Below, piece by piece: positions 11,301 through 31,189 of a stretch of 31,189 nucleotides of DNA (position 1 is the first letter of the stretch; every line of letters starts with the position of its first letter). Made by a program: the position numbers and the translations under genes. The notes under the pieces were generated by a model. It had not been told where the DNA came from and did no database searches. It saw only the letters and a list, made by a program, of their open reading frames with translations. The stretch is from a virus, in IMG/VR virus record IMGVR_UViG_3300006735_000126, positions 1 to 31,189 of that record; one strand, written 5' to 3'.

Positions 11301-14300
11301 AAAACCAAACCTCATTTTTCCTAGCAAAACGATCAGCAACTTTATTATTATCAAGATAACTATGAGCAGCGCTGGCATTAACACCGGCACTATAAACATT
11401 TGTAGCACCATAATATTGAGATGAACTCCTGTGAAAACCAGTGTATTGATAAAACTCAGTAAACCAAGGTACGCTTGGAGTGGTGCCATTATTCGTTATA
11501 GTACCACTATTACTTGGAGAATCAAATCTATATTTAGACGTTGACATGTCCAACCCCTGTATGTCGTCCATATCATCAGTTGGCCACTCTGTATTACCAT
11601 AATCATATCTTCTAAAATAACAAGCAAATCTACCAAAAGGATGACTATATGCTGATCTACCACCTGTTGCATTGTCTCCGTTAACATCTTCACCATGACC
11701 AGTAGCCTTTATACTATGCGTCACGTGGTGGTTTTCTCTCATAGAATATACTTTTTTAGATGTAACTGTTCTCCATTGTTGGTTTTTAGTAGTATCTTGA
11801 GAAATGTATGTTCTAAACGTATCGTCTATATATATCTTAACAAAAAACTTACCATCAAAAATAGGTAAGTTTTCAACTTTTTTCTTAAATATATTTATTA
11901 CAGCTTGGTCTTGTATTTCTGTTGAAAACTGACCTGTTGGATCGTCAGTTACAAAGTTAACATCATCTTCTAAAAAACGATCTGTTTGTATATAATACTT
12001 TGGATCAATAGGTACTGTTGAATCAAAAGCGTCTGTAGTTATAGAGGTTATTCTGTACTCTTGACTTTCTGCGCTAGAACCTGTTAGTGAAAGTGTAAAA
12101 TACAAATCTCCATCATCTATTTCATGTAACTTACTAGCTGAAGTATTGTTAAAATGATTATAATTCAAGGTAAATTTATCTGTTCCTTGCACTGGATTAT
12201 CAGAAGTAGTATTAGCGTTAAAAACAGGGTCTGTACCATTAAAGTGTTTTGCAGATATAATTTTTAATACGTTTGTTTTTATGTAATCAGGTGCTTCATT
12301 TTCTATCGCTAAAACCTTATATCTATTTTTTGTTTTTACAGCTTCGCTAGACTCTTGTGATTTTTTTAGTAATAAAAACGTTTCTTCATCTATTTTGTTT
12401 CTATCAATACTAGCAAAAGACAACCAAACGTTACCGTCCTCAGCGTCATACCAACGATCCATTGCTAAATTATAATACTCACCAGATGTTTGTTTTATAT
12501 AAAACTTATAGTACTTTTGATTTTTAGGCGCATCAGATCCAAACTTAACCCTTATTCTATTAGCCTCATCTGCTCTTGAGTAATCTACTTCAAAAGCTCC
12601 AGAAGGATTTGATATAACTGGCGTTTCTCTACCATACTCGTCAATAAAAACAACTCCTAGTTGGTATTCCCTTAGAGATTTTATAGATTTTATCGTGTTA
12701 GTTTGATAATCACCCCAACCTAATGGATGTGATGTTTCAAGTAAATTTATTTTAAAGTTTGGAGAATATGGATTACCAGCAGTATCAAAAACATCCCAGC
12801 CTTGAGTGTAGTTAGCAAAAACAATTCTGTTACCAGTTACTTCTTGTGCTAATGCGCTTTTTGGAACATTATCCCAAGATCTTAACAGTTGGTTTGAAGG
12901 AACTGTAGCTTTAATTGTTTCGTTGTTTATAGTATATGTGTCATTTTGCCAATAATTATCAATAGAATTTACTTTAATAGTATCAACGGTATAAACATTA
13001 GGTGAACCATCTTCTTTATAAAGTATATCTATTTCAACAACATCTAAAGGCGTATCGTTTAATCTAAAGTTTTTTATATCAATTTGACTTATCAAGTTGG
13101 TCATACCTAAATTATAACCTTTCTTAGGATGATAATCAAAACTTCCAGGAACAAATGCTATTTGAGTAAAAGGAGAATAAGTAGAATATTCACCGTCGCT
13201 ATATTTGTATCTAGTTGCAAATCTAGGAAACTTAAACTCAAACAGTCTTTCGTACGTGTCATATTTATCTATAGCATATTTTCTTTCTCCTGTGTTAGGA
13301 TCAGCTCCTAGTGGAAAGCCATCAATATTTATTATTTCTAACTCTACAATAATAGGCGTTGTAGCAGTAGCTGTAAAACCGTTTGGAGCGTCGGTTATTT
13401 CTGCTTTTATTCTATAATCCGTTATTGGAATTGCTGGAGGCTCTGAAGCGCCACTTGATAAATCGTCATATTCTTTTAAAACTACTTGACCACCAACACT
13501 CCAGTCTACAAGTGTGAAGTTCGTATTACCATATATATCTTCATCTATTTGTATTTCTACAGTTTCACCAACTGATACGCCTGAGAAATCATACGGATCA
13601 ATATTAGGCGCTGTTGCTGTTATTATATCATCATTAGTATTAGTATTTGGAAACTGATCTACTGTTATAGTTACAGCGCCAGTGTATACTTCTGGTGGGT
13701 TAAGTTGTAAACCACTATAATCTCTACCTGTTTTTAAATCTAAAACTGGAGCTTTGCTAGGTGGTTTTCTAATAAGAGTAACGTGTTGCTCTGCTAAAGG
13801 TATATTATCACTCATTGTTATACCTCTTTCTTCGTTTATGAGTCTAGTGTAACCAATTGGGTTGGTAGGAGTTCCTAGTTTACATCTTGGTATGTTTATT
13901 TTTTTAGGTTCGTTTTGGCCATCCGTCCAGAATAACATTTCATCAATAATATTTATTCCAGTTATCATGATGTGATTACCGTTATCATCAACAGGAAAGT
14001 TTAAAGGAGGATTATAACCAGATTCTTCTCCAAAGTTAAACTCAAAAGCCAAAATAGATCCAGCTGTAACCTCTGTAAGCAAATCATCCGGCATATAAGA
14101 TAACTGTACAGAGTTATTAGCGCCAAATCCGCTAACTGTTGGTGGGTCTGGATTAAACACTCCACTTGTTGGACTTGGACCAGTAAGAGGTGTGTAGTTA
14201 GCACCGTTAGAAAAATCATACGTGTTTGTTATAGCTGGAGTGTTGTTAGCGTTCCAACCAGATTGTATAACATAAACAGTTGACAAGACCATGCCCTGCA

Positions 14301-14832
14301 GTATGAGTTGATTTTGAGTTGGATAAAAATTTAATAAAGTCAACAAATAATAACCAGCTTGACTCTGCACTGACTGTTGGAAATAACCTTGTAATGGTAA
14401 CACAACGTTAGAAGCTTCTATAACTACAGGTGATACAGTGTTGTCTTTGTATTCCATTATACTGGCACCTGAAGATATGGCGTTAAATATTGGATCTGGA
14501 GATGTGATTGCTGTACCAGGTGTAAGACTGTAATTCATTAACGCGTCGTTAATTGAACCGCCAGCTCCTTGTGATAAAAACCAATATACAGCATTGTTTT
14601 TTTCGTCATCTATACTACCGACACAAATATTATCTTGACTTATAAGTGAGTCTTGTTGGTTCGGTTGAAGTTTAATATTACTCAAAAGATTTTGAACAGT
14701 ACCTACTTCAGAGTTGTCTGATGTAGATACTTGTACATTCATTGCATGTCTATATTCTCCATTTGAAACAAGTCTTTCGTCAAGATCCTTGTTCATCTTA
14801 CCACCGGTAAAATTCTGTTTAATCTCTGGCAT
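8377..14832 (-). CDS. Giant tail stabilization protein (gp10/gp12-like family)
   Basis: 2151 residues, the largest gene here. The N-terminus MPEIKQNFTGGKMNKDLDER followed by LVSNGEYRHAMNVQV is the hallmark of the phage stabilization/tail tubular-type family: a GG.MN.D.DER..p.geY..A.N pattern in which the protein lists its own fixed contacts with the portal ring. A conserved block around residues 530-620 (FPRFATRYKYSDGEYSTYSP, then FVPGSFDYHPKKGYNLGMTN) also fits. The C-terminal ~400 residues contain NPIYGSIQKLHSRS, EDRVLKILATKDAIFNADGN, GEYGISKNPESFASE and KQRGAVVRLSKDGLTPISDH, a beta-propeller-like repeat region typical of the family. In between (~950-1600) is a long, less familiar Gly/Asn/Thr/Tyr/His-rich stretch. 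The role is to close the tail hub or form the nozzle below the rings. It starts 3 bases after the stop of the upstream gene. Confidence 0.85.
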   Translation of the reverse strand: MPEIKQNFTGGKMNKDLDERLVSNGEYRHAMNVQVSTSDNSEVGTVQNLLSNIKLQPNQQDSLISQDNICVGSIDDEKNNAVYWFLSQGAGGSINDALMNYSLTPGTAITSPDPIFNAISSGASIMEYKDNTVSPVVIEASNVVLPLQGYFQQSVQSQAGYYLLTLLNFYPTQNQLILQGMVLSTVYVIQSGWNANNTPAITNTYDFSNGANYTPLTGPSPTSGVFNPDPPTVSGFGANNSVQLSYMPDDLLTEVTAGSILAFEFNFGEESGYNPPLNFPVDDNGNHIMITGINIIDEMLFWTDGQNEPKKINIPRCKLGTPTNPIGYTRLINEERGITMSDNIPLAEQHVTLIRKPPSKAPVLDLKTGRDYSGLQLNPPEVYTGAVTITVDQFPNTNTNDDIITATAPNIDPYDFSGVSVGETVEIQIDEDIYGNTNFTLVDWSVGGQVVLKEYDDLSSGASEPPAIPITDYRIKAEITDAPNGFTATATTPIIVELEIINIDGFPLGADPNTGERKYAIDKYDTYERLFEFKFPRFATRYKYSDGEYSTYSPFTQIAFVPGSFDYHPKKGYNLGMTNLISQIDIKNFRLNDTPLDVVEIDILYKEDGSPNVYTVDTIKVNSIDNYWQNDTYTINNETIKATVPSNQLLRSWDNVPKSALAQEVTGNRIVFANYTQGWDVFDTAGNPYSPNFKINLLETSHPLGWGDYQTNTIKSIKSLREYQLGVVFIDEYGRETPVISNPSGAFEVDYSRADEANRIRVKFGSDAPKNQKYYKFYIKQTSGEYYNLAMDRWYDAEDGNVWLSFASIDRNKIDEETFLLLKKSQESSEAVKTKNRYKVLAIENEAPDYIKTNVLKIISAKHFNGTDPVFNANTTSDNPVQGTDKFTLNYNHFNNTSASKLHEIDDGDLYFTLSLTGSSAESQEYRITSITTDAFDSTVPIDPKYYIQTDRFLEDDVNFVTDDPTGQFSTEIQDQAVINIFKKKVENLPIFDGKFFVKIYIDDTFRTYISQDTTKNQQWRTVTSKKVYSMRENHHVTHSIKATGHGEDVNGDNATGGRSAYSHPFGRFACYFRRYDYGNTEWPTDDMDDIQGLDMSTSKYRFDSPSNSGTITNNGTTPSVPWFTEFYQYTGFHRSSSQYYGATNVYSAGVNASAAHSYLDNNKVADRFARKNEVWFLDMYKHVDKATASQNSLNYFQHPSSQADQFDMSDLSIGGIGPMQPIGSTSGTDALDISTGYHHFKLTLGPIFLNKSIGNQTAENEYSALPVGGGIFTHGLTQGTNFDNFFAVGTGNPNYQDLSTTLFTDRLNPGSTWRWAEDPNLKEYNITGNVYQNNILRYYTHGGYDDAGEILRETAGSLTSGGTLGDGGHFNGAQLSPNFNKTWRWTQEHVSGQLNWVPADVGGIQSDIGPIIGGRKTSLTTANPVSGSGPFGNHLGPGSTSSTGDDSSSVGINHHYIVVTQASYLAATDQFGNSCRVVPGYVVTSYVNESAQAVVCDTGTTKPHLVVRDVIVNNGIYNGVASTKIYLTGYMEALDLTHVVRCDPSTSITFAQGAMNGYSPNSAARISLQKSTTGTGAFTTNANTGVNTGGSVNLLYAVGYTMEFIEPSYDNITLPENPAIWETEPKDSADLDIYYEASDLIPIKLDDSTDSGFLPLQQEQIGFQLIGTFENCTIETHVSVQGFSIPTGTVINSISGNILTLSQLPTGVGGNPIAIGNNDNVNIIKPDGSIFTSTVESISDLELTIDAFTWKHYHTLNWYNCYSFGNGVESNRVRDSFNAPFMSNGVRASSTLEEKIEQETRKYGLIFSGIYNAVSSTNSLNQFIQAEKITKEINPIYGSIQKLHSRSTADGDLITLCEDRVLKILATKDAIFNADGNPQLVANVNVLGQAIPYAGEYGISKNPESFASESYRAYFTDKQRGAVVRLSKDGLTPISDHGMKDWFRDHLKLSDKLIGSYDDKKDEYNIALKTNEPLQPEYGSQEYVLSFKEDIRGWVSFKSFIQMESGISMASNYYTFYEGKIYQHHAETGSFNSFYSITNPSSITFLLNDSPSVVKSFKTLLYEGSQAKVTQELQDGQYYNLIEKKGWYLQNINTDMQFGANVEFIEKENKWFNYIKGFEGGEIEEEDFTYQGIGVVNSSQLQIINSIIQS

Positions 14833-21021: not shown

Positions 21022-23466
21022 TTATTGAGGATCAAATTGTCCTAAACCAAATCCACCACTTAATAAATCATTACCCTCGGATTCAAAATCCATCATAGAC
21101 GTAGCTTGACTAAAATTTTTAGGTGGTTTGTTGTTGTTTCTTTGATCAATTAATTCTGATTGTTGAGATGCTTGAATTCTAGTTCTTTCATCTTTACGAT
21201 CTTCTTTTTCTTTCTCTTTACTTTTTTGTCCTTCAACTTCAATGCCTTTAAGTTGCATGTTGTAATTAAATTCTAATTCCATTAATTCTTTCTTATGCAT
21301 AACTTCTTGTTGCATTTTTTGAGATTCTAATTGAGATTTCACTTGTTCTAATTGAGCTTGACTTTGTGATATTGCTTGGTTTTTTTGCACCTCAGCTTGA
21401 GCTGCTGCTTGAGCAGACTGCTGGTTTAACTGAGCCTGTTGTTGCATGTTTTGCATTTGTACCTGCTGATCTCTATCAAGTTTTTTCTTTCTTCTTATTT
21501 TTAAAAGTTGATTAGCTAGCTTTATATTTTTTATTTCTCTAATATCAATTGCATCGGCTAATTCTATAACCTGTTGTTGTAATGCCATTTGAATGTTATT
21601 TTCTAACATCATTTTTTCTTCTTCATCTGGTTGTAGTTCAATGAAAATACCAAAATCGTACAAGTGAAGTTCTTTTAACTCTTCAAGTATAGATGAATTG
21701 TGCACGCCTATTGATTGTATGAAAGCTTCTTTTGTTGGTGAATACTCTAGTATATCCGATATTCTTAGTGATAGGCATTCTGCCGTTTCAGCTGTTAAAT
21801 ACAAGCCAGCTTGCAATATGTGTCTTGTCGCAGTGTTGCTGTTTGCAGCGGCTAATTTCTGAACGCCCACTAAAGCATTTTTATCTGGCATACTACCGTC
21901 TCTAGCCTCATTTAACCCAGTTACATCTCTAATCATTTGCATATAGTAGTTATAATTACCTATAAGCGCTTGCATTTTATTACCACCATTACCGCTAGTT
22001 ATTTCTTGAATAGGAACTTTACCTGGATTCATATCGCCTTCTGAAGTAAAACTTCTACCGATAACAGAACCTGTTTGAAAAAACATATTTAAAGCTTCTT
22101 GTGGATTATAGTTTGTACCGTTGCCTAAATCTATTTCTGCTAAACCATCAGCATCTAGATAAACACCATCAGGAACCATACGTGATAATACTTGTTGTAA
22201 CTTTAGGTGTGTTAATTGAATCATATCAGCAAATCCAGTTATTTTTTTAACTAAAGAATCTATTTTACCATTATACATTCTAGGAGCTACAATAGCATAG
22301 TTCATTTTTACTTTAGTAAAATTACTTTTAGGACGCATCATGTTTTTTGCCATTTCCCACTTAAGTAGTCTATTTGTACCAAGTATCATAGCGCCCTCGT
22401 ACAAACACTCTATTGATCTTAACATTTTGCCATAACCACCCTGCATACCTTCTGGCGGACTAAAGGAGTCATCTTTAGGTATTACTTTTTCAGCGCCAGT
22501 TCCAGTTTCTTTTACTTTGTAAACTTCATTCATATAAGTTTTATAATTAAAATACAAAACTTGTATAGTGTTATTATCTTCTTTGTCGTAATTGTGTCTT
22601 GAGTTATAATTAGATCTATTATTAGATTTATTGCTCATTATTTCATCTAAATCACTTTCTGATAAAAATGGAAATTGTTTTGCTAGTTCATTTACTGGAA
22701 TTGATTTTACTTCTCCAACATAATATATATCTTCAAAATATGGAGATTCTGTGTAAGAATATACTAAATTAGCTGGATCTACATAGTCAATAACAACGCC
22801 TTCAGATGTGTTAAAAGAGGTTTTAACAGCACCTATGCCTAACACAGTAAGATCGTAATAAAACTGCTTTTTAATTAACTCATATTTATTACCTTCCATC
22901 AAGACGTTTAAAGCTTGTTCTTCTGCTAACTCAGCTGATTGCTTGTAAGTTATTTGCATGTGAAGTGCTAATTCTTCATCTGTATCTGGTAGTTCTTGTA
23001 CGTTACTGTCTCTAACGTTTAAATTTAAATCTTGTTGAACAGTTTGATTAAACTCTCTTAACCTCATGTCTTTTAACACAGCGTCCATATATTTTGTTCT
23101 TTTAGAAACTCCATATGGATCTTGTGAATAAGCTTTTATATCGTATGTTCTTTCCGCTATACCATTAACAACAATATCTACAAATTTAGATATAATAGGT
23201 ACAGGTTTCCAGTCTAAATTTAAATAGGACAAATCACCATTTATAGACAATTCATCCTTATACTTTTGAATAGACTGTTCGCCTCTAGCGTACAATCTTA
23301 AATCGTGAAAATCACTGTGGTTAGTTCTGTATCTGTTAATATTTCTATCATTATCAAACCACTCTTGCTCTATTGCTTTACCAACTTTTAAACCATAGTC
23401 ATAGCTCAGCTTTTCAGCGTCACTAACAGTTTGACTAGGAAAATAGCTTTTGCTAGAATATGCCAT
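21022..23466 (-). CDS. Portal protein
   Basis: 814 residues. The N-terminal core carries DYGLKVGKAIEQEWFDNDRN and VPIISKFVDIVVNGIAERTY, with LGIGAVKTSFNTSEGVVIDY and VDPANLVYSYTESPYFEDIY, the typical clip/wing region of portals of marine and crAss-like phages. The core ends with MIRDVTGLNEARDGSMPDKN, another portal signature. From ~residue 660 on the sequence is a long Gln/Lys/Glu helix with many QQ/QA repeats (MQNMQQQAQLNQQSAQAAAQ), which resembles the barrel helices of P22-like portals and of crAss-like portals. It ends in FGLGQFDPQ. As a 12-mer ring it would hold terminase during packaging and the tail rings afterwards. It begins 2 bases after the terminase stop. Confidence 0.9.
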   Translation of the reverse strand: MAYSSKSYFPSQTVSDAEKLSYDYGLKVGKAIEQEWFDNDRNINRYRTNHSDFHDLRLYARGEQSIQKYKDELSINGDLSYLNLDWKPVPIISKFVDIVVNGIAERTYDIKAYSQDPYGVSKRTKYMDAVLKDMRLREFNQTVQQDLNLNVRDSNVQELPDTDEELALHMQITYKQSAELAEEQALNVLMEGNKYELIKKQFYYDLTVLGIGAVKTSFNTSEGVVIDYVDPANLVYSYTESPYFEDIYYVGEVKSIPVNELAKQFPFLSESDLDEIMSNKSNNRSNYNSRHNYDKEDNNTIQVLYFNYKTYMNEVYKVKETGTGAEKVIPKDDSFSPPEGMQGGYGKMLRSIECLYEGAMILGTNRLLKWEMAKNMMRPKSNFTKVKMNYAIVAPRMYNGKIDSLVKKITGFADMIQLTHLKLQQVLSRMVPDGVYLDADGLAEIDLGNGTNYNPQEALNMFFQTGSVIGRSFTSEGDMNPGKVPIQEITSGNGGNKMQALIGNYNYYMQMIRDVTGLNEARDGSMPDKNALVGVQKLAAANSNTATRHILQAGLYLTAETAECLSLRISDILEYSPTKEAFIQSIGVHNSSILEELKELHLYDFGIFIELQPDEEEKMMLENNIQMALQQQVIELADAIDIREIKNIKLANQLLKIRRKKKLDRDQQVQMQNMQQQAQLNQQSAQAAAQAEVQKNQAISQSQAQLEQVKSQLESQKMQQEVMHKKELMELEFNYNMQLKGIEVEGQKSKEKEKEDRKDERTRIQASQQSELIDQRNNNKPPKNFSQATSMMDFESEGNDLLSGGFGLGQFDPQ

Positions 23467-23468
23467 AT

Positions 23469-25685
23469 TTATTGCTTAATTATTCTTGAATTAGTTCCAG
23501 TATTAGTATACTTGGATATATTTATATTTAGTTTAGGTTTTTCGATTTTAGCATTTGGCGCATATAAATGTTTATTGTTTGCCATTATAGCTAAACCACT
23601 ACTTATAGTTGCATCAAACTTTGTTCTTTTTGTAATATCAAACCTACTCCAATCATTTAGTAACTCATTAAAATATAAATTACCAAAAGTTCCATCTTGT
23701 TTCATGCCAACATGATCTTGTATGTACATTTCTATTGCAGCGGCATGTGCTTGTTTTATATCTTCGCTTGAATTTGGTATGCCACCAATTTCTTTTTCTG
23801 CTACAGATAATTTATTCCAAATCTTATCAGGACGATTCATACTAAAACCTCTATAACCTCTTCTTCTTAAATAGTACAACAACCTCGGTTTATTATTTTC
23901 TGCTAGTATTGGCATGCTGTAAAATACTAGCGCCATTAATACGTCTTCAAAGAACATCTCTGCTGTTGGAGGTCTTGACAAGTATTCTAAGAAAAAACTA
24001 TTAGCAGGAGCGTCTTCCATGCTAAACTTAGTTAAACCGTGTAAAGAACCTTTAGATCCACCACCATCTACAGTTCCTGATATATCATATGAATCACAAC
24101 CAAACGCCCCCATGTGTTCATTTCCAGGATGTTTTACCCCATTTTTAAGTATAACTCTATTTTGTAACTGTTGGGGTGGCACCCAGCTAACCTTAAATCT
24201 ACCTTTTGCATCTGGATAAAATATAACCTGCGTGTCTTTTACGCCATTTACCCATTGAAAATTACCTCTAGTAATGCCTAATGTTCTAGACATTTCTTCA
24301 TTATAATCTATTTGTTCATATATTTTTACAAGATTAAAAATACTATTTTTTGTTTCATCTCTAAACGCGTGCTCTTCAGTTCTCGGGAACTGTCTGTAAA
24401 ACTCGTTTAAAGCATCTTGATCGTCTTTTAATCCGTCAACTTCGTTTTGCCAACTGTCTATTACACCTATATCTATTAATTCACCATCTGGTGCGAGCAC
24501 ATCCCCGTCAGGAGTAGTAAATACTGGAACTCCGTATTCGTCAATAAATCCTTCATAGTTCCATTCCATTGGGATAAACAAAGAGTATAAACCAGATTTT
24601 GTTTGGCCGTTTCTATTTCGCTTTGTGACATCACTTGCATTATATAGTTTTTTAAAATTATCACCTCCTTTATCAAGAGCGTTAGAAGTAGATCCCATCA
24701 TGCATTTACCAACTATTCTACTACCTAACCGCAAGCAAGTTTTTGTAACTCGCCAGTTGTTTAGTATGTTATCAGGCCTTTCCCATTTACCGCTTTCGTC
24801 ATGCACTAATAAATTTAACTTTTCACCGTCGTAACTATTATCACCTGTATTTTTCCAATCTATAGTTGTATCTAACCCCTGTATGTCTTCTAACTTTTCA
24901 TTTGTTGTAATCTTTTTTCTAGTGAATTTACTAGCGGGCACTCTATACGCTAACTCTGATTTAGGTCGATCCATACCGTCTTGTATAGGTTTAAAGAAAA
25001 ACGGATAGTTTATACTAATCGGTACAACTTTGTCTGTAAACATTTTTTTAGCATCAGCACCTGTTTTAGAAAGTATACCATATCTACTATCACTTGCAAG
25101 TGTGGCTAAGTTAACTGTTTCTGCAGATGACATAAACGAAAATCCTGACCTTCTGTTTTTTAGGTAACACATACCATAACATCTTTTATCCGCTTTACAA
25201 GCTTCCCAAAATATATAAAACAACCTGTTAGCTTCTCTAAAATCAGGAGCCCCAACATCTATCTTGCTCCATTGTAGATACATATAATGAGTACCTGTTA
25301 TGTAAGTTGGTTTACTATTGTTAACAAACCAAAAACCTTCATCTCTTCTTTTAAACTCTTCGTCTATATAGTCAAACCATTGTTCTTTTTGTTCTTCTGG
25401 ATGGTTTTTCCAGTCAAATATATTTTTTAACCTAGCAAGTTCTTTAGGATAATCTTGTTTAGCCCATTTATTTAATTCATGTTTGTACACTTGCCCTGGC
25501 ACTCTTGGCAGCGCAATTCGCAAATTTTGGATTTCAACCACTTCGCCAATTTGACCAGTTTTTGATATAACAATGATATCATGTTCTTTATTGTATCCAT
25601 ATTTCCATTTTTTAGATTTGTTAAGCCGACTTATAGTCGCGCGTTTAATAGGTTTTATTGTTTTAACTAAATTTTGCTCGTACAT
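23469..25685 (-). CDS. terL: Terminase large subunit (packaging ATPase/nuclease)
   Basis: 738 residues. The ATPase part has YLKNRRSGFSFMSS (174-187) at the Walker A position, lacking the canonical G-K-T/S; NLLVHDESGK (291-300) as Walker B with Asp-Glu; and CMMGSTSNA (~328-336) as the coupling motif. QFPRTEEHAF (432-441) is the usual link to the nuclease part. GAFGCDSYDISG (~526-537) gives the first nuclease acid, with later acidic residues near FFEDVLMALVFY and AENNKPRLLYYLRRRGYRGF. It cuts concatemers and pumps DNA into the head through the portal. The preceding gene's TAA overlaps its ATG by one base (TAATG), suggesting coupled translation. TerL of ~740 residues is known from uncultured marine phages. 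Confidence is high for the function, lower for subfamily. Confidence 0.93.
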   Translation of the reverse strand: MYEQNLVKTIKPIKRATISRLNKSKKWKYGYNKEHDIIVISKTGQIGEVVEIQNLRIALPRVPGQVYKHELNKWAKQDYPKELARLKNIFDWKNHPEEQKEQWFDYIDEEFKRRDEGFWFVNNSKPTYITGTHYMYLQWSKIDVGAPDFREANRLFYIFWEACKADKRCYGMCYLKNRRSGFSFMSSAETVNLATLASDSRYGILSKTGADAKKMFTDKVVPISINYPFFFKPIQDGMDRPKSELAYRVPASKFTRKKITTNEKLEDIQGLDTTIDWKNTGDNSYDGEKLNLLVHDESGKWERPDNILNNWRVTKTCLRLGSRIVGKCMMGSTSNALDKGGDNFKKLYNASDVTKRNRNGQTKSGLYSLFIPMEWNYEGFIDEYGVPVFTTPDGDVLAPDGELIDIGVIDSWQNEVDGLKDDQDALNEFYRQFPRTEEHAFRDETKNSIFNLVKIYEQIDYNEEMSRTLGITRGNFQWVNGVKDTQVIFYPDAKGRFKVSWVPPQQLQNRVILKNGVKHPGNEHMGAFGCDSYDISGTVDGGGSKGSLHGLTKFSMEDAPANSFFLEYLSRPPTAEMFFEDVLMALVFYSMPILAENNKPRLLYYLRRRGYRGFSMNRPDKIWNKLSVAEKEIGGIPNSSEDIKQAHAAAIEMYIQDHVGMKQDGTFGNLYFNELLNDWSRFDITKRTKFDATISSGLAIMANNKHLYAPNAKIEKPKLNINISKYTNTGTNSRIIKQ

Positions 25686-25960
25686 TACTTAGATCTGCCT
25701 TCTGCGAATCCTTTAAAGATTTTTTCCTTTCTCTCTTCAGGTGCTTTGCCCTCAAGCAGGTTCTCTTCTTCTTGAATTCTGTTAAGTATTTCAAATGCGT
25801 CAAATATAGCTAGTTTTTTAGTAGCCGCGGCATTTTTTAATCTATCTGCTGATATATCATCATCAGAGTCTACAATAGGTTCTTTAGCAACTTTGATTAA
25901 TTCATCAACGGCCTTATGCCCAGCTTGGATTATATTCTTCTTCGTCTCCTTGGTATTCAT
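25685..25960 (-). CDS. Small conserved protein, possible small terminase
   Basis: 91 residues if read from MNTKETKKNIIQAGHKAVDE (ATG at 25958-25960). An earlier ATG at 26008 would add 16 residues in a weaker N-terminus and a longer overlap with the upstream gene. The protein is helical, with ELIKVAKEPIVDSDDDISAD, RLKNAAATKKLAIFDAFEIL and a charged C-terminus. Its place directly before terL and the TAATG overlap with it suggest a small terminase or packaging accessory protein. There is no recognisable helix-turn-helix, so the small-terminase idea stays tentative. I recall the DDISADRLKNAAA.KK.AIFDAFEIL pattern in uncultured marine phages. It overlaps the end of the GroES-like gene by 47 bases with the preferred start. 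Confidence 0.5.
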   Translation of the reverse strand: MNTKETKKNIIQAGHKAVDELIKVAKEPIVDSDDDISADRLKNAAATKKLAIFDAFEILNRIQEEENLLEGKAPEERKEKIFKGFAEGRSK

Positions 25961-26495
25961 ATTTAATTGTAATAAAATTTGATAAAACTCTATATAGTCT
26001 TTCACCATCTACTATAAATTCGTATTCACTTTTTGGTCTAAAACCAATTAGATCGCCAATCTTCACCGTACCATCTGTATACTTAACAACACCTTGAAGT
26101 GGTTTTTCTGATTCAATATTAAACTGATCTATTGCTTTTAAAGGTTTTATAAAACAATAACCTCTTGGAGCTATCCACTCTTTTTTTCTTTTATATAAAA
26201 ATATTTGGTCGTGGTTTATAAAATAAGTAGATTCATTAAAATAACTTCTACTATTTTTTTCTATACCTTTTACATTGTTCCATCTTCTAAACACGTTGTG
26301 ATGAACTATCACTGTGTCACCTGGTTTTATATCTGTATCACCAATTATAGGTGTTGATACAACAAAAGCTTCTCTGTTTACATATTGATGATTAAATATT
26401 TCAGTGTTAAGTATTAACTCTTTATCACCAATTTTTTTGCTATTATTGTATCTTTCTCCTTTTGGTTTTACAACAAAGTTGTAAACACTTTTCAT
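25914..26495 (-). CDS. GroES-like co-chaperonin, two Cpn10-like domains in tandem
   Basis: 193 residues. The N-terminal half (~1-103) reads like a Cpn10 barrel: FVVKPKGERYNNSKKIG, then VNREAFVVSTPIIGD, then IKPGDTVIVHHNVF, then YFINHDQIFLYK. The C-terminal half (~104-182) repeats this: APRGYCFIKPL, LQGVVKYTDG, TVKIGDLIGFRPKSEYEF and VDGERLYRVLSNFITIKY. The second half matches the GroES layout (RxxIKP ... GDxVxF ... G.E..vdGe.y.vv...I...) especially well. Host GroES has one domain per chain, so this is a double-length chain. Phage GroES substitutes, such as T4 gp31, help the host GroEL fold the capsid protein, which fits the position upstream of terL, portal and capsid. The start overlaps the upstream stop by one base (TAATG). 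Domain call is moderately secure. Confidence 0.62.
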   Translation of the reverse strand: MKSVYNFVVKPKGERYNNSKKIGDKELILNTEIFNHQYVNREAFVVSTPIIGDTDIKPGDTVIVHHNVFRRWNNVKGIEKNSRSYFNESTYFINHDQIFLYKRKKEWIAPRGYCFIKPLKAIDQFNIESEKPLQGVVKYTDGTVKIGDLIGFRPKSEYEFIVDGERLYRVLSNFITIKYEYQGDEEEYNPSWA

Positions 26496-26716
26496 TAGTA
26501 TTCTAGATTATATTCTATAGATACAGCCATGTTTTTGTTAAAGTCTTTCCAAGGTAAAACGTCTTTGTTTTTTTTGATATATATAGAATATTTTTCATCT
26601 TCTTCTAATATATCACAAATAGTATGACCTCCATAAACTTCTTGTCCAACAGCATAGTGCATGGCGTCGTTTTTGTAATCTTTCCCTACTGAGATTTTAC
26701 GAATTAACTTCGCCAT
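26495..26716 (-). CDS. Small conserved protein of unknown function
   Basis: 73 residues, beginning MAKLIRKISVGKDYKNDAMH and continuing with VGQEVYGGHTICDILEEDEK, YSIYIKKNKDVLPWKDFNKN and MAVSIEYNLEY. Beta-rich with a central Gly-Gly turn; no signal peptide or membrane segment. I recall similar K.sVG.dyk..aM.Y.vGq.v ... v.WK.f..mp.siEyn.ef proteins in several uncultured marine phages, always without function. The preceding gene overlaps it by 20 bases. It ends by a one-base stop/start overlap (TAATG) with the GroES-like gene, so the two are probably co-translated. A role in head assembly is possible only by neighbourhood. Confidence 0.55.
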   Translation of the reverse strand: MAKLIRKISVGKDYKNDAMHYAVGQEVYGGHTICDILEEDEKYSIYIKKNKDVLPWKDFNKNMAVSIEYNLEY

Positions 26717-26981
26717 TTTCTTTTGTATAATTTATAGCACCACTTTGAATATCTATATCAAATGTACCGTATTCTTTTTCAAATTCTTTTTGTAACAAAG
26801 TAAGTTCATCTCTAAGACCAGCTATACCATGCAAAAGATCATGCTTTCTAAGCTCCATAGAACCTATTTCTAACTGTGATCTATTCATGTTGTTTACTGT
26901 TTTTTGAACTTTTTCTAGTTGTTCATCAGTTATTTTTTCTGGTTTAAGATCCAGAACCTTTTCTTTTTTTGCCATTTTCAT
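26697..26981 (-). CDS. Small coiled-coil protein of unknown function
   Basis: 94 residues starting MKMAKKEKVLDLKPEKITDE; the second ATG two codons later is also possible. It is charged and strongly helical with a coiled-coil look (NNMNRSQLEIGSMELRKHDL, then GLRDELTLLQKEFEKEYGTF), ending in a short beta segment DIDIQSGAINYTKENGEVN. The ending EKEYGt.DIdI..G.I.Y recurs in phage proteins near head genes from memory, with unknown role. It overlaps the next gene by 20 bases, so translation may be coupled. There is no evidence for any enzyme activity. Confidence 0.6.
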   Translation of the reverse strand: MKMAKKEKVLDLKPEKITDEQLEKVQKTVNNMNRSQLEIGSMELRKHDLLHGIAGLRDELTLLQKEFEKEYGTFDIDIQSGAINYTKENGEVNS

Positions 26982-27002
26982 TTAATTTAAGTTAATTTTA
27001 TT

Positions 27003-27797
27003 TTATTGTCCTTCTATATAGTCAAATATTTCTTTTCTATCTCCTGAGCTAGCAGCTGTTCCATCCCATATAAGTACATCTTTAAAAAATCCTACAAAAT
27101 TACCACTTTCGTCAAAAGATGCTCCTATGTCACTTATTGTTATTTCACCGGCGTCTGTTAACTGACTACCCATTTGTGTTCCTGTAGCAGTACCATTTAG
27201 AGATTCGTTTCCTCTAATAAACACGTTTAAATTCCCTGTAGAACCATCACTTCTAACAATAAGAACTGTAAAGTACTCATCGGTCGCTATAGTTCCACTT
27301 GCTAAAGCGAAATCTCTATTTACATTGTTTACTTTAGCTCTTAAGGTTGTGTTACTATTTAATCTTAAAAACTCAGTAGCGGCGCTCCCCATAAGACCAC
27401 GAGCAGCACTTAAATCAGTAGCTTTAAATCTTACAGCTATTGTAAAATCTGTGTTTGCATCTAAATCAATTTCTTCAGAAAGATCCATAAATTTAATTTG
27501 ATTATGGAATTTTACACCACCAATATCTGCCGCATCTGTTTCCCAAAGAGGTTTGTCGCCAGTATCTGTTTGCACTGCGTTTATACTTGTAGAACCAAAA
27601 GCGTTCCAAGCATTAATTTTGTCTTGATCTGCCATATTTCCAGCCGCTGTACTATGAGTGACAGAAGTACCACCGCTATCTTGATCCGCAGTAATATTTT
27701 GATTAACCTTTAACCACAACGTTAAGTTTGATAAACTTGCTGGTGTCCAGCTATCTACATATTGACTAGAAGTTACGCTGTTACCTAATCCTAACAT
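27003..27797 (-). CDS. Putative virion surface protein with LamG/lectin-like domain
   Basis: 264 residues. It starts MLGLGNSVTSSQYVDSWTPA, then LSNLTLWLKVNQNITADQDS, with DKINAWNAFGSTSINAVQTD and KPLWETDAADIGGVKFH in the middle. The region ~100-260 (IDLDANTDFTIAVRFKATDL, RGLMGSAATEFLRLNSNTTL, NVFIRGNESLNGTATGTQMG and VGFFKDVLIWDGTAASSGDR) has the order of a concanavalin A/LamG jelly-roll: TPASLSNLTLWL is the usual opening, and KDVLIWDG near the end is a typical LamG closing pattern. Such domains bind sugars and appear on phage surface proteins. I infer a head or tail decoration that may touch cell-surface glycans. The gene starts with a one-base overlap of the upstream stop (TAATG). Confidence 0.6.
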   Translation of the reverse strand: MLGLGNSVTSSQYVDSWTPASLSNLTLWLKVNQNITADQDSGGTSVTHSTAAGNMADQDKINAWNAFGSTSINAVQTDTGDKPLWETDAADIGGVKFHNQIKFMDLSEEIDLDANTDFTIAVRFKATDLSAARGLMGSAATEFLRLNSNTTLRAKVNNVNRDFALASGTIATDEYFTVLIVRSDGSTGNLNVFIRGNESLNGTATGTQMGSQLTDAGEITISDIGASFDESGNFVGFFKDVLIWDGTAASSGDRKEIFDYIEGQ

Positions 27798-28204
27798 TAG
27801 TCTCCTATATAAGCTATCACAGCTCCAGAGTGAACATCTATTTCAGTCCATCTACCGTAAATAGTAACTCCTTTTGGAAACGTAACGGCGTCTGCTTCAC
27901 TACTACCACCAATAATAAGACCACCAGATCCTTCGTCTGTAGTTTCTGATCCAGCAGCTAAATCACCAGCGGCTTTTTCTGTACCTATATAAACAGCGGC
28001 TACTGCTGTAGTATTTACAGCTGTTCTAACAGTTGGATTATCAGCAACTAAACCAGCTGAGTCATCAAAAACAGTATCAGCTAACATTGTTATAGCTACA
28101 AAAACTTTATTTGTTGGTGGCTTTATAGCGTCACTACTTGCTGTGGTGTATACGCTACCTAATTGTCCAAAGCCATAAGAGACTTCTGTTGAATTTATTC
28201 CCAT
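27797..28204 (-). CDS. Small structural/decoration protein candidate
   Basis: 135 residues. It starts MGINSTEVSYGFGQLGSVYT, then is Ala/Thr/Val/Gly-rich with beta character (NKVFVAITMLADTVFDD, LVADNPTVRTAVNTTAVAAV) and ends FPKGVTIYGRWTEIDVHSGA plus VIAYIGD. The composition, free of Cys and rich in short beta strands, and the FPkGvTIyGRWteidv.sGavIAYiG ending look like small virion proteins seen in uncultured marine phages, perhaps capsid decoration proteins. No signal peptide or enzyme motif. It precedes the LamG-like gene with a TAATG junction, so the two may form one surface structure. Function is uncertain. Confidence 0.5.
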   Translation of the reverse strand: MGINSTEVSYGFGQLGSVYTTASSDAIKPPTNKVFVAITMLADTVFDDSAGLVADNPTVRTAVNTTAVAAVYIGTEKAAGDLAAGSETTDEGSGGLIIGGSSEADAVTFPKGVTIYGRWTEIDVHSGAVIAYIGD

Positions 28205-28208
28205 TTTT

Positions 28209-28595
28209 TTATTTTTTTACTTTTTCAAATGATCGACCACCAAAATAAGCACCGATCACGGTTATTAATACTAATTGTAATAAGTCAGTCCATTTTTGTT
28301 CTACCACAAAGTTAATAGCACCTGCATCTATAAATATTAATAGTACAGTTGATATTACTAAAAATGCTAAAACTAATGGTCTGATGTTTTTAGATAACCA
28401 TGAATCTGACTTCATGTCTGCTTGCCATCTAGAAGTTATTTCTTTTTCCATTTGAGTTTCGTATTGTGCTACTAACTCTTTTACTTTTAACTCTGCAGCG
28501 AGTTTTTCTTCGTCAGATGTATGTAAACCATCTATAACACCACCTACACTTTTAACGAGGTCAGCAGCGCCACCTCCAAATAATTTATCTAACAT
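28209..28595 (-). CDS. Holin-like membrane protein
   Basis: 128 residues from MLDKLFGGGAADLVKSVGGV (ATG at 28593-28595). A longer version from 28613 adds six residues but would overlap the upstream gene. After a helical, charged part with LHTSDEEKLAAELKVKELVA and a long amphipathic helix come two clear hydrophobic segments, RPLVLAFLVISTVLLIFIDA and LLQLVLITVIGAYFGG, and a basic C-terminus. GL.t.dEEK ... WL.kn.RPl.l ... GayFGgRsfEK matches the look of the three-TM holin family first named in gene transfer agents (GTA_holin_3TM, PF11351), from memory. It would open the inner membrane at the end of infection. It starts 1 base after the preceding stop. Confidence 0.65.
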   Translation of the reverse strand: MLDKLFGGGAADLVKSVGGVIDGLHTSDEEKLAAELKVKELVAQYETQMEKEITSRWQADMKSDSWLSKNIRPLVLAFLVISTVLLIFIDAGAINFVVEQKWTDLLQLVLITVIGAYFGGRSFEKVKK

Positions 28596-28596
28596 A

Positions 28597-28815
28597 TTAT
28601 TTCTTTTTTGCAAATTTTTCTAATCCACTTATACCGAAGCAACCAATCACTACAAATACAAATGAATCGTATATAAATTCATTAATTACTAGGTCTTTAC
28701 CAAAATAACCCGTTATTACGTCTACTAACATAATCACACACATTACTGCAAATGCTAAAAATCCTATAACAGATTTTTCATTATAATCATTATTATCTTT
28801 AAATATATCCTTCAT
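28597..28815 (-). CDS. Small two-TM membrane protein
   Basis: 72 residues from MKDIFKDNNDYNEKSVIGFL (ATG at 28813-28815). An upstream ATG at 28881 would lengthen it by 22 residues but would run through most of the end of the neighbouring gene, so I prefer the shorter form. Two hydrophobic segments: VIGFLAFAVMCVIMLVDVIT and FIYDSFVFVVIGCFGISG. The C-terminus is basic (LEKFAKKK). It may be a holin partner, antiholin or membrane anchor. Its place directly before the holin-like gene supports a lysis role, but sequence alone does not prove it. The preferred start overlaps the preceding gene by 17 bases. Confidence 0.55.
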   Translation of the reverse strand: MKDIFKDNNDYNEKSVIGFLAFAVMCVIMLVDVITGYFGKDLVINEFIYDSFVFVVIGCFGISGLEKFAKKK

Positions 28816-29233
28816 CGTGACCATTATTAGCATCGTTTTCCCAAGGAAAACCAGTGTCTCCAGCTTCTTTCCATTTACCATCTACCAATATAGCATCAAC
28901 ACCATTAATATTTTTTCTCATAAATTTATCTCCGTTATACATAACATAATCGTCTGTATACGCTAGTTTACCTGTTTTCATGTCTGTAGCGTGTCTCATT
29001 TCGTGGTTTATTACTTGTGATTCTTCTTGACTACCAGGTGTTATTTGATCACTAATAAATATACTACCATCCATATTGGCTTCACCCATAACACCTTCAT
29101 CTAATGGTACTCTAATTACTGGAGTACCAGGTACAGACGCGTCTCCACCAGCTTGCTGGCCAAAACGCATTTTTGTTTTTATTTCACCGTTAACAGCGTA
29201 ATTACCTTTTTCTGATCCTAGTTTAAATGCCAT
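28799..29233 (-). CDS. HExxH protein, possible zinc metallopeptidase
   Basis: 144 residues. It starts MAFKLGSEKGNYAVNGEIKT, then has TPVIRVPLDEGVMGEANMDG and SIFISDQITPGSQEESQ followed by VINHEMRHATDMKTGKL. His77-Glu78-Met-Arg-His81 is the zincin HExxH signature, in a helical context (sQVINHEMRHAtDM), with Asp84 nearby. No further zinc ligand can be proven. The whole is short for a secreted peptidase, and there is no signal peptide. It lies between two small genes and the membrane proteins, so a lysis enzyme, a cell-wall peptidase or a virion maturation protease are all possible. I recall similar sequences in uncultured marine phages. Motif certain; enzyme activity uncertain. Confidence 0.6.
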   Translation of the reverse strand: MAFKLGSEKGNYAVNGEIKTKMRFGQQAGGDASVPGTPVIRVPLDEGVMGEANMDGSIFISDQITPGSQEESQVINHEMRHATDMKTGKLAYTDDYVMYNGDKFMRKNINGVDAILVDGKWKEAGDTGFPWENDANNGHDEGYI

Positions 29234-29243
29234 TTACTTTTTT

Positions 29244-29864
29244 TTAGTTAGTACCTATACCAAGTTCACCCTTAACATACTCTACTTCACCCCTACTAGT
29301 TCTTAATTCAGATTCGTTATCTACATCTTGGTCATCTATATTAAGTAGTTTACCACTTTCTGGATCATAGGTATATATTGTTGTTTTATTTTTACTTTTA
29401 ACAATCACTTGTTCTAAATCACCATCTTTATTTTCTATTTTAGTTGTTTGTATAACATCAAACATCCTGTCTGTACTAACAGGGCTGTGAGTTTCCATTA
29501 CTCTAGCATAACTAAAATCATCAATATCATCAGCGTTTTCAAAATATTCTATATCTTCTCTTAAAATTTTTCTAGCTTCTTCATTTAAAACTAAAACTCT
29601 TTCAGTATATGAATACCTGCCTTTTTTTAGTTTTTTCTCAGAATCATCACCGTAGGCAGCAATAGTGTAATTATAACCCATTCCGGTTGTGTCATAAAAA
29701 CCATCTGGAGTAACACCATATAAATCGTCAAAATTAAAACTATCAAACTCTGATAAAGAACTATCAGTTTCAAGAGGTCTATTTTGTTGACTTGTGCTAG
29801 GGTCGGTAATACGTCTTACAGGTGAACGCATTTGTGACGCCAAAGCATTTATTTTATCATACAT
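29244..29864 (-). CDS. Uncharacterised acidic protein
   Basis: 206 residues, starting MYDKINALASQMRSPVRRIT. It is Asp/Glu/Ser-rich, with a central ERVLVLNEEARKILREDIEY segment and a beta-strand region with KNKTTIYTYDPESGKLLNID near the C-terminus. No recognised domain, signal peptide or membrane segment. It follows the winged-helix-like gene (4-base gap) and precedes the HExxH protein (10-base gap). One possibility is a partner of the HExxH protein, since both are in one tight gene string; there is no direct evidence. The leader lacks a Shine-Dalgarno sequence. Confidence 0.5.
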   Translation of the reverse strand: MYDKINALASQMRSPVRRITDPSTSQQNRPLETDSSLSEFDSFNFDDLYGVTPDGFYDTTGMGYNYTIAAYGDDSEKKLKKGRYSYTERVLVLNEEARKILREDIEYFENADDIDDFSYARVMETHSPVSTDRMFDVIQTTKIENKDGDLEQVIVKSKNKTTIYTYDPESGKLLNIDDQDVDNESELRTSRGEVEYVKGELGIGTN

Positions 29865-29868
29865 ATTT

Positions 29869-30309
29869 TTATCTATCTTTATCTTTAATCATATCATCTA
29901 TAGCTTTATTGTAAACTTTATCTGTATATGACTTGTTGTTATAAAATACACTTCTTTCTGATGTAGGAAGATCTTCCTCACCTAGAAGTATTCTGTAAAT
30001 TCTACTTATCATTTGAGAGCATTTGAAAGAAGTTTTAAATACAGAGTACATAATAGTTGTTCTATTTCTATGCCTCCAAACATCAATCCAACCTCCATCC
30101 CTTAATCTTTCCCACCTTGCTTTATCCCACGAATATGTGTAAACTCCGTTGATAAAATCGTTTCGTGTAAATCTTCCTTTACAATCTAAATAAATTAATA
30201 ATTCCAAATCTGCATCTTTTAACCCGTAAGTTTTACAGACCCACTTTCTAGTGAGCCTGTAATACTTAAGGATGTTTAATTCACGCAGATCCTGCGCGGT
30301 TAATCTCAT
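29869..30309 (-). CDS. Winged-helix-like DNA-binding protein candidate
   Basis: 146 residues. The core (~34-85) reads ADLELLIYLDCKGRFTRNDF, then YSWDKARWERLRDGGWIDVW, then RHRNRTTIMYSVFKTSFKCS: a helix-helix-turn-helix and wing layout like MarR-type winged helices. The C-terminus has SRIYRILLGEEDLPTSERS and YTDKVYNKAIDDM. I recall this LELLiYLd..g.Ftr.dF ... sWd..Rw..L...GWI.vwR pattern as a conserved protein of marine phages, called MarR-like by others. It could regulate late genes, or have a structural role in packaging since it lies in the virion gene string. The start after the paralog pair is 6 bases after their stop. Confidence 0.55.
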   Translation of the reverse strand: MRLTAQDLRELNILKYYRLTRKWVCKTYGLKDADLELLIYLDCKGRFTRNDFINGVYTYSWDKARWERLRDGGWIDVWRHRNRTTIMYSVFKTSFKCSQMISRIYRILLGEEDLPTSERSVFYNNKSYTDKVYNKAIDDMIKDKDR

Positions 30310-30315
30310 TCAAGA

Positions 30316-30603
30316 TTAAGCAGCAGCTATTGCAGCTATACTGGTTACACCATCTATAGCGGCTACATTAATAACACCACCTTTTTGGATAGCGCTTTGA
30401 TGTATGTGTCCTGCTATTACTTCAGCTACTTCGCTAGATTTACCAGTCGCTGTTATAGCAACTTCGTCAAAAGCTAAATCATCTGAAGTACCAAGACATC
30501 GAAGATCAACAGTATTAGCATCAACAACGTCTATAAACTCTACTTTATCAGCAGGCAACCAAGTGCATTCGTTAGCATCTTTTCTTAGTTTTAAAATATT
30601 CAT
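30316..30603 (-). CDS. Small protein A of a paralogous pair
   Basis: 95 residues, MNILKLRKDANECTWLPADK at the start, then beta-rich with TSDDLAFDEVAITATGKSSE, VAEVIAGHIHQSAIQKGG and an Ala/Ile-rich end. It shares with protein B (30630-30950) the M-x2-L-x-[FL]-[KR] opening, a PAD[KR] element, an ITATG strand and an I-A-x-H segment, so the two arose by duplication. Neither has a signal peptide or membrane segment. Similar ~100-residue pairs occur in marine phages in front of head genes from memory, perhaps as small virion or decoration proteins. Role unknown. Confidence 0.6.
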   Translation of the reverse strand: MNILKLRKDANECTWLPADKVEFIDVVDANTVDLRCLGTSDDLAFDEVAITATGKSSEVAEVIAGHIHQSAIQKGGVINVAAIDGVTSIAAIAAA

Positions 30604-30614
30604 ATCAATATATA

Positions 30615-30624
30615 TTTAAGGGTT
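30615..30624 (-). repeat. Decamer AACCCTTAAA in the leader of protein A
   Basis: The coding-strand sequence AACCCTTAAA lies 11 bases before the ATG of protein A and recurs in the leader of protein B at 30991-31000. This may be a shared regulatory or translation element, or just retained duplication. It is too short to be sure. Confidence 0.3.
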
Positions 30625-30629
30625 AATAA

Positions 30630-30950
30630 TTAGACAGCTGTCAATACCAATGCTGATATCGCGCTATTGTTAAAATTAGCATCTATTACTGGTGAAGCTC
30701 CATTGGCCATATTACCATATAAATGCTCAGCGATTAAATCACCAGTTGTTTCAGCAGCACCTGTTGCAGTGATTACAATTGTATCACCAGCAGTGTCGTT
30801 ACTTGTACCAGCAATTGCTTTTAATCGTAAAGTTAGAGTGTTATTTGTAGATGAAGAAACCATAGCTAGGATTCTATCAGCAGGAACATAATACTCTATA
30901 TTTGCGTCGTTTGTGCTAGTCGCAACTTTTTTGAATCGTAAAACTTTCAT
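30630..30950 (-). CDS. Small protein B of a paralogous pair
   Basis: 106 residues starting MKVLRFKKVATSTNDANIEY, with VPADRILAMVSSSTNNTLTL, RLKAIAGTSNDTAGDTIVIT, ATGAAETTGDLIAEHLYG and a short C-terminal SALVLTAV. It is paralogous to protein A next to it: same opening, PAD[KR], ITATG and I-A-x-H elements, and similar length. Composition is Ala/Thr/Asn-rich and beta-prone, as expected for a virion component. No enzyme motif. Its leader (30951-31018) is a 68-base AT-rich gap, the longest in the window. I infer a minor structural role from context only. Confidence 0.6.
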   Translation of the reverse strand: MKVLRFKKVATSTNDANIEYYVPADRILAMVSSSTNNTLTLRLKAIAGTSNDTAGDTIVITATGAAETTGDLIAEHLYGNMANGASPVIDANFNNSAISALVLTAV

Positions 30951-30990
30951 TTTTTGTTCTTTTAATTAATAATTTGTTTTCGTTTTTAAG

Positions 30991-31000
30991 TTTAAGGGTT
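30991..31000 (-). repeat. Decamer AACCCTTAAA in the leader of protein B
   Basis: Coding-strand AACCCTTAAA about 40 bases before the ATG of protein B, the same ten bases as at 30615-30624 before protein A. The distance to the start differs (40 versus 11 bases), which argues against a fixed ribosome-binding role. Confidence 0.3.
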
Positions 31001-31018
31001 TTGGATTATGGTTTAGGC

Positions 31019-31189
31019 TTAATCTACTAGAACAACGTCACCATCACGAATAACTCTATACAGAGTGTCTTTCCATGATATGTCGTGTCCAGCATGTTTA
31101 TCGTAATATATCGTGTCACCATCTTTTAATCCTTCAACTAAATTACCACACGATATTATTTTTGCTTTTATATAACGGTTGTCTACATC
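31019..31189 (-). CDS. GroES-like co-chaperonin, C-terminal part only
   Basis: 56 residues are visible; the start lies beyond the right edge. The frame reads IKAKIISCGNLVEGLKDGDT, then IYYDKHAGHDISWKDTLYRV, then IRDGDVVLVD and a TAA at 31019-31021. This is the end of a Cpn10 barrel: V..G ... l..GD.v.y.k.aG.ei...g..y.viR..Di..v matches the GroES C-terminal half closely (GD, the aG..i turn, the y.vir..D ending). GroES works as the lid of the GroEL folding chamber; a phage copy would redirect the host chaperonin to phage proteins. With the tandem GroES-like protein at 25914-26495 this makes two candidates in one gene string. Confidence 0.75.
   Translation of the reverse strand, partial: DVDNRYIKAKIISCGNLVEGLKDGDTIYYDKHAGHDISWKDTLYRVIRDGDVVLVD

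Follow-up and report, generated by a model that had tools for sequence, protein, structure and literature searches.

A GroES gene at the edge of a phage contig and a predicted doubled GroES-fold protein in the same gene run

Introduction

Co-chaperonins of the Cpn10/GroES type possess a flexible mobile loop that bears a hydrophobic tripeptide, and in Cpn20 each of the two domains has such a mobile loop. Phage T4 gp31 (1g31, 2cgt) is a phage-encoded protein of the GroES fold, and works with the GroEL of its host according to the available text of PMC7185714, which cites its source; the same text states that certain phages encode GroEL and GroES together. In chloroplasts, Cpn10 and Cpn20 reportedly act as hetero-oligomeric rings (PMC5780408, available part), and tandems of the Cpn20 type, such as the 7ekq chains of Chlamydomonas, consist of two head-to-tail GroES folds. 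For marine Bacteroidetes phages, the accessible text of Nishimura 2017 (PMC5332604) reports GroEL in 36 genomes of a group 2, which are kin of Cellulophaga phi38:1. The term 'groes' occurs 0 times in this text and a tandem lid is not mentioned, whereas the record analysed here has both. GroEL and GroES homologs are mentioned in the accessible part of the Panino paper, and that of the North Sea flavophage paper counts chaperonin cpn10 among the genes common to Pervagoviridae. We found no description of a tandem phage GroES as such in the literature searched; coverage was incomplete, and a report in print may well exist.

Results

The virus record

The window analysed is the entire virus record IMGVR_UViG_3300006735_000126, 31,189 bp in length, with its long genes on the minus strand. 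Terminase, portal and several virion proteins could be identified in it by PHROG match (Table 1). The terminase shares 37.6% identity over 97% with that of Cellulophaga phi38:1, and several virion PHROGs also matched; the source virus is probably a marine tailed phage with kinship to flavobacterial podoviruses, and may belong with phi38:1 in marine Bacteroidetes phage group 2 (Pervagoviridae). In one related contig (G027, L180, 71,968 bp) groEL is divided between both contig ends. In another (G002, L024, 71,276 bp) the gene order is the usual one, with groEL-groES towards one contig end and the doubled gene towards the opposite end. Either contig has the look of a circularly permuted genome of ~72 kb, so that the 31,189-bp record may be less than half of a genome.

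Table 1. Coordinates of the co-chaperonin genes and their neighbours in the window
Feature	Position	Strand	Basis or remark
Portal protein	21022..23466	-	phrog_6547, E=3.9e-149
Terminase large subunit	23469..25685	-	phrog_6681, E=8.6e-173; fixed neighbour of the doubled GroES gene
107-aa protein, function unassigned, between the doubled GroES gene and the terminase gene	25685..26008	-	open reading frame; PHROG match: none
Doubled GroES-fold co-chaperonin (predicted), 193 aa	25914..26495	-	phrog_13932 and predicted fold
Phage GroES/Cpn10, C-terminal part of 56 residues (complete relatives: 85)	31019..31189	-	start beyond the contig end

The edge frame is part of a GroES gene

The frame at the right edge is open to the contig end, before which there is no start codon. 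Pfam Cpn10 matched the fragment at E=1.1e-4 in a search of the whole record, with 18.1-19 bits, just under the cut-off of 21.1 because 36 of the 93 model positions are covered; two PHROG families of GroES matched it at E=1.2e-5 and 1.9e-5. A relative that is identical to the fragment over all 56 residues (L006) reached 32.3 bits against Pfam Cpn10, above the same cut-off. The best of five AlphaFold2 models of this relative had a pLDDT of 74.7 and a pTM of 0.64 (the five span 74.7 to 56.7), and the sole stretch under pLDDT 50, residues 16-31, falls at the place of the mobile loop. With this model, Foldseek found 4pj1 (E=1.1e-4, probability 1.00), 1wnr was superposed with Z 10.2 (rmsd 2.4, 75 residues), and the top 15 entries ranked by Z were without exception Cpn10/GroES or gp31. 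As judged from the family matches and from the fold predicted on the relative, the edge frame is the C-terminal two thirds of an ordinary phage Cpn10/GroES. The preliminary description, which held that the 56 C-terminal residues fit GroES, was thus borne out by the Pfam and PHROG matches, the identity with L006 and the predicted fold.

Scanning viral contigs yielded at least 545 confirmed relatives, of which 80 were kept, and the 220 loci pooled contained 124 complete single genes, coding for 90 distinct proteins. Complete relatives have 85-87 aa, and the 29 residues missing at the edge correspond in them to strand 1 and the mobile loop of the GroES fold. The motif GL[ILVM][ILVM]T of this loop is present in all 90 distinct relatives; the record's own loop lies beyond the edge. 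The sequence to the right, which the preliminary description had named as the place to complete the gene, is available in a near-identical contig, IMGVR_UViG_3300030376_004046 (99.985% identity to 24661-31189, 6,529 bp), which extends into the start and the loop of GroES and has a phage GroEL as its next gene, directly upstream of groES. In the relatives the N-terminal part, with its mobile loop, is GroES-like, and the non-GroES sequence that would have refuted the preliminary description was not seen. Within groES, directly past the end of groEL, this contig has a scaffold gap of 10 N, whose flanks read as the GroES start (MK) and the GroES loop (GLIMT). Our record probably stops at this groES site because the assembly breaks there, and since part of the missing stretch falls inside the gap, the GroES N-terminus for this exact genome is taken from the relatives. 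Usable dS values were obtained for 83 of 96 pairs; in these, dN/dS over the 56 codons of the edge gene had a median of 0.07 and a maximum of 0.30, and the gene is under purifying selection.

On a single contig (L002:2209-3936) GroEL runs into the last ~58 residues of GroES in one 575-aa frame, which fits an in-frame deletion and a mis-assembly equally well. Directly after groES, L025, L028 and L038 encode small proteins other than those found at 30630-30950 and 30316-30603 of the record, which marks a variable slot.

GroEL and the co-occurrence of the three genes

In 14 of 14 records checked, the end of groEL overlaps the start of groES by 4-17 bp. Three phage GroELs share ~39-40% identity with Salmonella GroEL and are without the GGM tail. 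All 11 residues examined of what we take to be the ATPase site are kept in the three proteins; at positions presumed to make apical contacts, the phage GroEL differs from that of Salmonella (Y199L, Y203H, L234Q, L259K), and docking of a lid on it is consequently not a given.

From the loci, 40 long related records were chosen. This sample is biased, since the edge protein had brought in 19 of them and the doubled protein 7. The doubled gene was found in 40/40 of these records, a second GroES-family match in 36/40 and GroEL in 34/40. Among the 14 records recruited by the 146-aa neighbour gene, the doubled form was present in all 14, the single form in 13 (one partial) and GroEL in 12; the two exceptions without GroEL (G028, G037) are contigs that stop ~0.5 kb upstream of this neighbour gene, in or before groES. 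Three records recruited by the doubled protein are without the single form. Upstream of the doubled gene, their contigs extend for 1.9 (G018), 3.1 (G020) and 4.8 kb (G021) before they stop. The distance between single and doubled genes goes down to ~2.9 kb in other records, so that the single gene may be truly absent from G020 and G021.

The doubled protein

The doubled protein matched phrog_13932, 'co-chaperonin GroES', over residues 1-173 (E=7.4e-17). Domain 1, which has a mobile-loop-like ELILNT, spans about residues 1-105; domain 2, in which the loop is shortened, spans about residues 106-181. The predicted model (pLDDT 80.4, pTM 0.73) had its best solved matches in 7ekq_R (E 4.8e-4), named as a Cpn20 co-chaperonin subunit in the PDB sequence table, and 7ekq_Q (E 2.0e-3), followed by single GroES chains for each half. 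Superposition on 7ekq_Q gave Z 9.2 (rmsd 4.7, 152 residues), and each half gave Z 8.2, residues 1-103 with 1wnr and residues 106-180 with 8wuc. Among viral models, a full-length match to 'Chaperonin cpn10' of Cellulophaga phage phi18:3 was obtained.

Pfam returned 0 families for the record's doubled protein, and Pfam Cpn10 did not match the doubled proteins of elemo, Panino and MW202828; it did match the second domain of those in phi13:2 and phi38:1. The alignment of the doubled family had 0 matches among PDB sequences, and its comparison with the single-family profile was not significant (E=0.052). The GroES identity of the doubled protein hence rests on PHROG, the fold and the second-domain Pfam matches in phi13:2 and phi38:1. 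On this footing the gene is real, with two predicted GroES folds per chain.

The two domains differ in their loops. In domain 1, a hydrophobic tripeptide precedes NT in 160 of 162 distinct doubled proteins. The loop of domain 2 is 13-15 residues long in 160 of 162 proteins (the other 2 could not be parsed), compared with 26 for the single form by the same measure, and the tripeptide is absent from it in the record's protein. Thus, in contrast to the loop per domain of Cpn20, the doubled protein has one long tripeptide loop per chain, in domain 1 only; its identity with the 7ekq chains is 13-16%.

The doubled and single genes are separated by ~4.5 kb within one run of genes on the same strand. 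The earlier suggestion that the phage may hold two different co-chaperonins, one conventional and one doubled, in one gene string agrees with the predicted GroES folds, the family matches and this spacing. Very probably the phage carries both, together with a GroEL of its own.

Named phages

Seven named phage records were searched for GroEL, single Cpn10 and the doubled protein. The single and the doubled form were each found in the same six (elemoF, Panino, MW202828, phi38:1, phi13:2 and phi18:3), and GroEL in the first four of these; none of the three was found in Tenacibaculum phage Gundel_1. The doubled gene adjoins the terminase gene or sits one small gene off in 6/6 named phages that have it. 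In Panino, L222:20129-20395, annotated as hypothetical and near GroEL, is Cpn10 at 36 bits, and this phage therefore has the same three-gene set as ours. By tblastn with the doubled protein, 77 of 50,697 phage records matched, 68 of which are Flavobacterium phages.

The Flavobacterium elemo phages, Cellulophaga phi38:1 (Pervagoviridae), Maribacter Panino and MW202828 resemble the record in having GroEL, a nearby single Cpn10 and a doubled GroES by the terminase. The record's doubled protein shares 33-43% identity with three of them and its single GroES 28-33% with two. In the elemo phages, however, the single and doubled genes lie on opposite strands, whereas in the record they share one strand. 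Cellulophaga phi13:2 and phi18:3 (Pachyviridae) likewise have a single GroES and a doubled gene near the terminase; GroEL was not found in these two, in contrast to the record's phage. Consequently the gene set is not new, as GroEL and both lids are already in the public annotation of isolated phages. With T4 gp31 the identity is 8-11%, and 1g31 was superposed with Z 8.0 on the single and 7.7 on the doubled model.

Phylogeny and origin

The preliminary description had also suggested a phylogeny of both proteins against host and phage GroES. Our tree had 42 rows of ~75-105 residues each, with long branches and 11 open forks; it sampled 10 of the 24 rows of the single-family alignment and 7 doubled proteins, and left out a MAG row (L246, 123 aa) and the single proteins of phi13:2 and phi18:3. 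The five host GroES fell together (98/99), separate from the phage proteins. The seven doubled proteins had their first domains in a single group (100/98), while their second domains grouped weakly (70/64). Because of the short rows, long branches and open forks, we lean only on the host and first-domain groups. The tree gives no support to the view that the doubled form arose recently by copying of the single one, and its grouping suggests a long presence of the doubled form in these phages.

Descent of the doubled gene from a host was rejected: its profile matched one of 299 Flavobacteriaceae genomes, namely the centre genome, a MAG, with the matches on short contigs. Four of six MAGs also matched, these having been picked for a phage-like GroEL. 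Phage-like GroEL with single or doubled GroES was seen in MAG bins (L226-L232, G041-G046) assigned to Maricaulis, Sphingobacteriales, Alphaproteobacteria, Flavobacteriaceae, Rickettsiales and Aliivibrio, and phage-like GroEL also in a Euryarchaeota bin. Such genes probably belong to mis-binned phage contigs and are a trap for host assignment.

Discussion

We consider it likely that the edge frame is a phage GroES, encoded after GroEL in a pair of overlapping genes, and that the phage has in addition a tandem lid of GroES fold. The overlapping genes, the conserved loop and the intact ATPase-site residues make it most likely that the single GroES serves as the lid of the phage's own GroEL: seven copies would form a ring, the mobile loops of which would bind the apical domains of that GroEL and so close off a cage in which phage proteins fold. 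We are less sure of the role of the doubled protein. It would be a second, specialised lid for the folding of a virion protein; its position near the terminase gene, and its presence together with a single GroES in phages in which GroEL was not found, suggest that it can probably use the GroEL of the host and that it may serve a virion protein.

Alternatively, the tandem could put the GroES fold to another use, as a protein of the virion or of DNA packaging, and form no chaperonin lid. Its place near terminase and portal genes, in the record and in all six named phages having it, would suit such a role, as would its weak sequence link to GroES and the shortened second loop. A purely structural protein, however, would have no need for the domain 1 tripeptide that nearly all distinct doubled proteins keep, and we regard this possibility as unlikely.

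Somewhat more doubtful still is a mixed lid, in which single and tandem chains co-assemble on the phage GroEL in the manner of chloroplast Cpn10/Cpn20. The joint presence of both forms in 6/7 named phages and 36/40 chosen contigs is consistent with such a lid, and so are the chloroplast tandem chains as best solved matches of the tandem model and the hetero-oligomeric rings reported for chloroplasts (PMC5780408, available part). Yet the two genes are ~4.5 kb apart, they form no single operon unit in the elemo phages with their opposite strands, and domain 2 is without the long loop that a simple doubled GroES would have. With equal reserve, one may speculate that these phages evolved, independently of chloroplasts, a complete chaperonin system for a large virion protein, whose lid has two components: a Cpn10 of one domain, and a tandem that resembles Cpn20 but has one active loop per chain. 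Such a lid could be a mixed ring, for example with seven domains from one single and three tandem chains, or a taller, two-storey tandem dome.

One could argue that the edge frame belongs to a GroEL-GroES fusion or is a gene remnant, and is no free co-chaperonin, from the N-terminal part, which lies outside the record and is gapped in the nearest contig, and from the joint frame of L002, but we reject this and any non-GroES reading as highly improbable in view of the free protein at 124 complete loci, the low dN/dS and the GroES sequence on both flanks of the gap.

The edge gene by itself is ordinary. More interesting is the pairing, with a compact genome that would encode two lids, one normal and one doubled, besides GroEL, and the existence of natural relatives that have both lids without GroEL. 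This raises the question of why one virus has two kinds of lid and how labour is divided between them. The phages offer a bacterial test bed for the tandem-lid symmetry problem posed for chloroplast Cpn20 (PMC5780408, available part), and also for the question of how phages tailor folding cages to the virion proteins they encode; isolates that carry these genes are available, among them the Flavobacterium elemo phages and Cellulophaga phi38:1 and phi13:2.

Other features of the record

The doubled GroES frame and the 107-aa frame share 95 bases in different frames (25914-26008, minus strand), and the start of the latter may have been set too early. One open frame of 2,151 aa occupies 8377-14832 (minus). 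A 144-aa protein at 28799-29233 (minus) contains NHEMRHATD, a metallopeptidase-like motif, and its peptidase matches are all sub-threshold. The adjacent proteins at 30630-30950 (106 aa) and 30316-30603 (95 aa), both on the minus strand and with no confident family match, look alike by eye.
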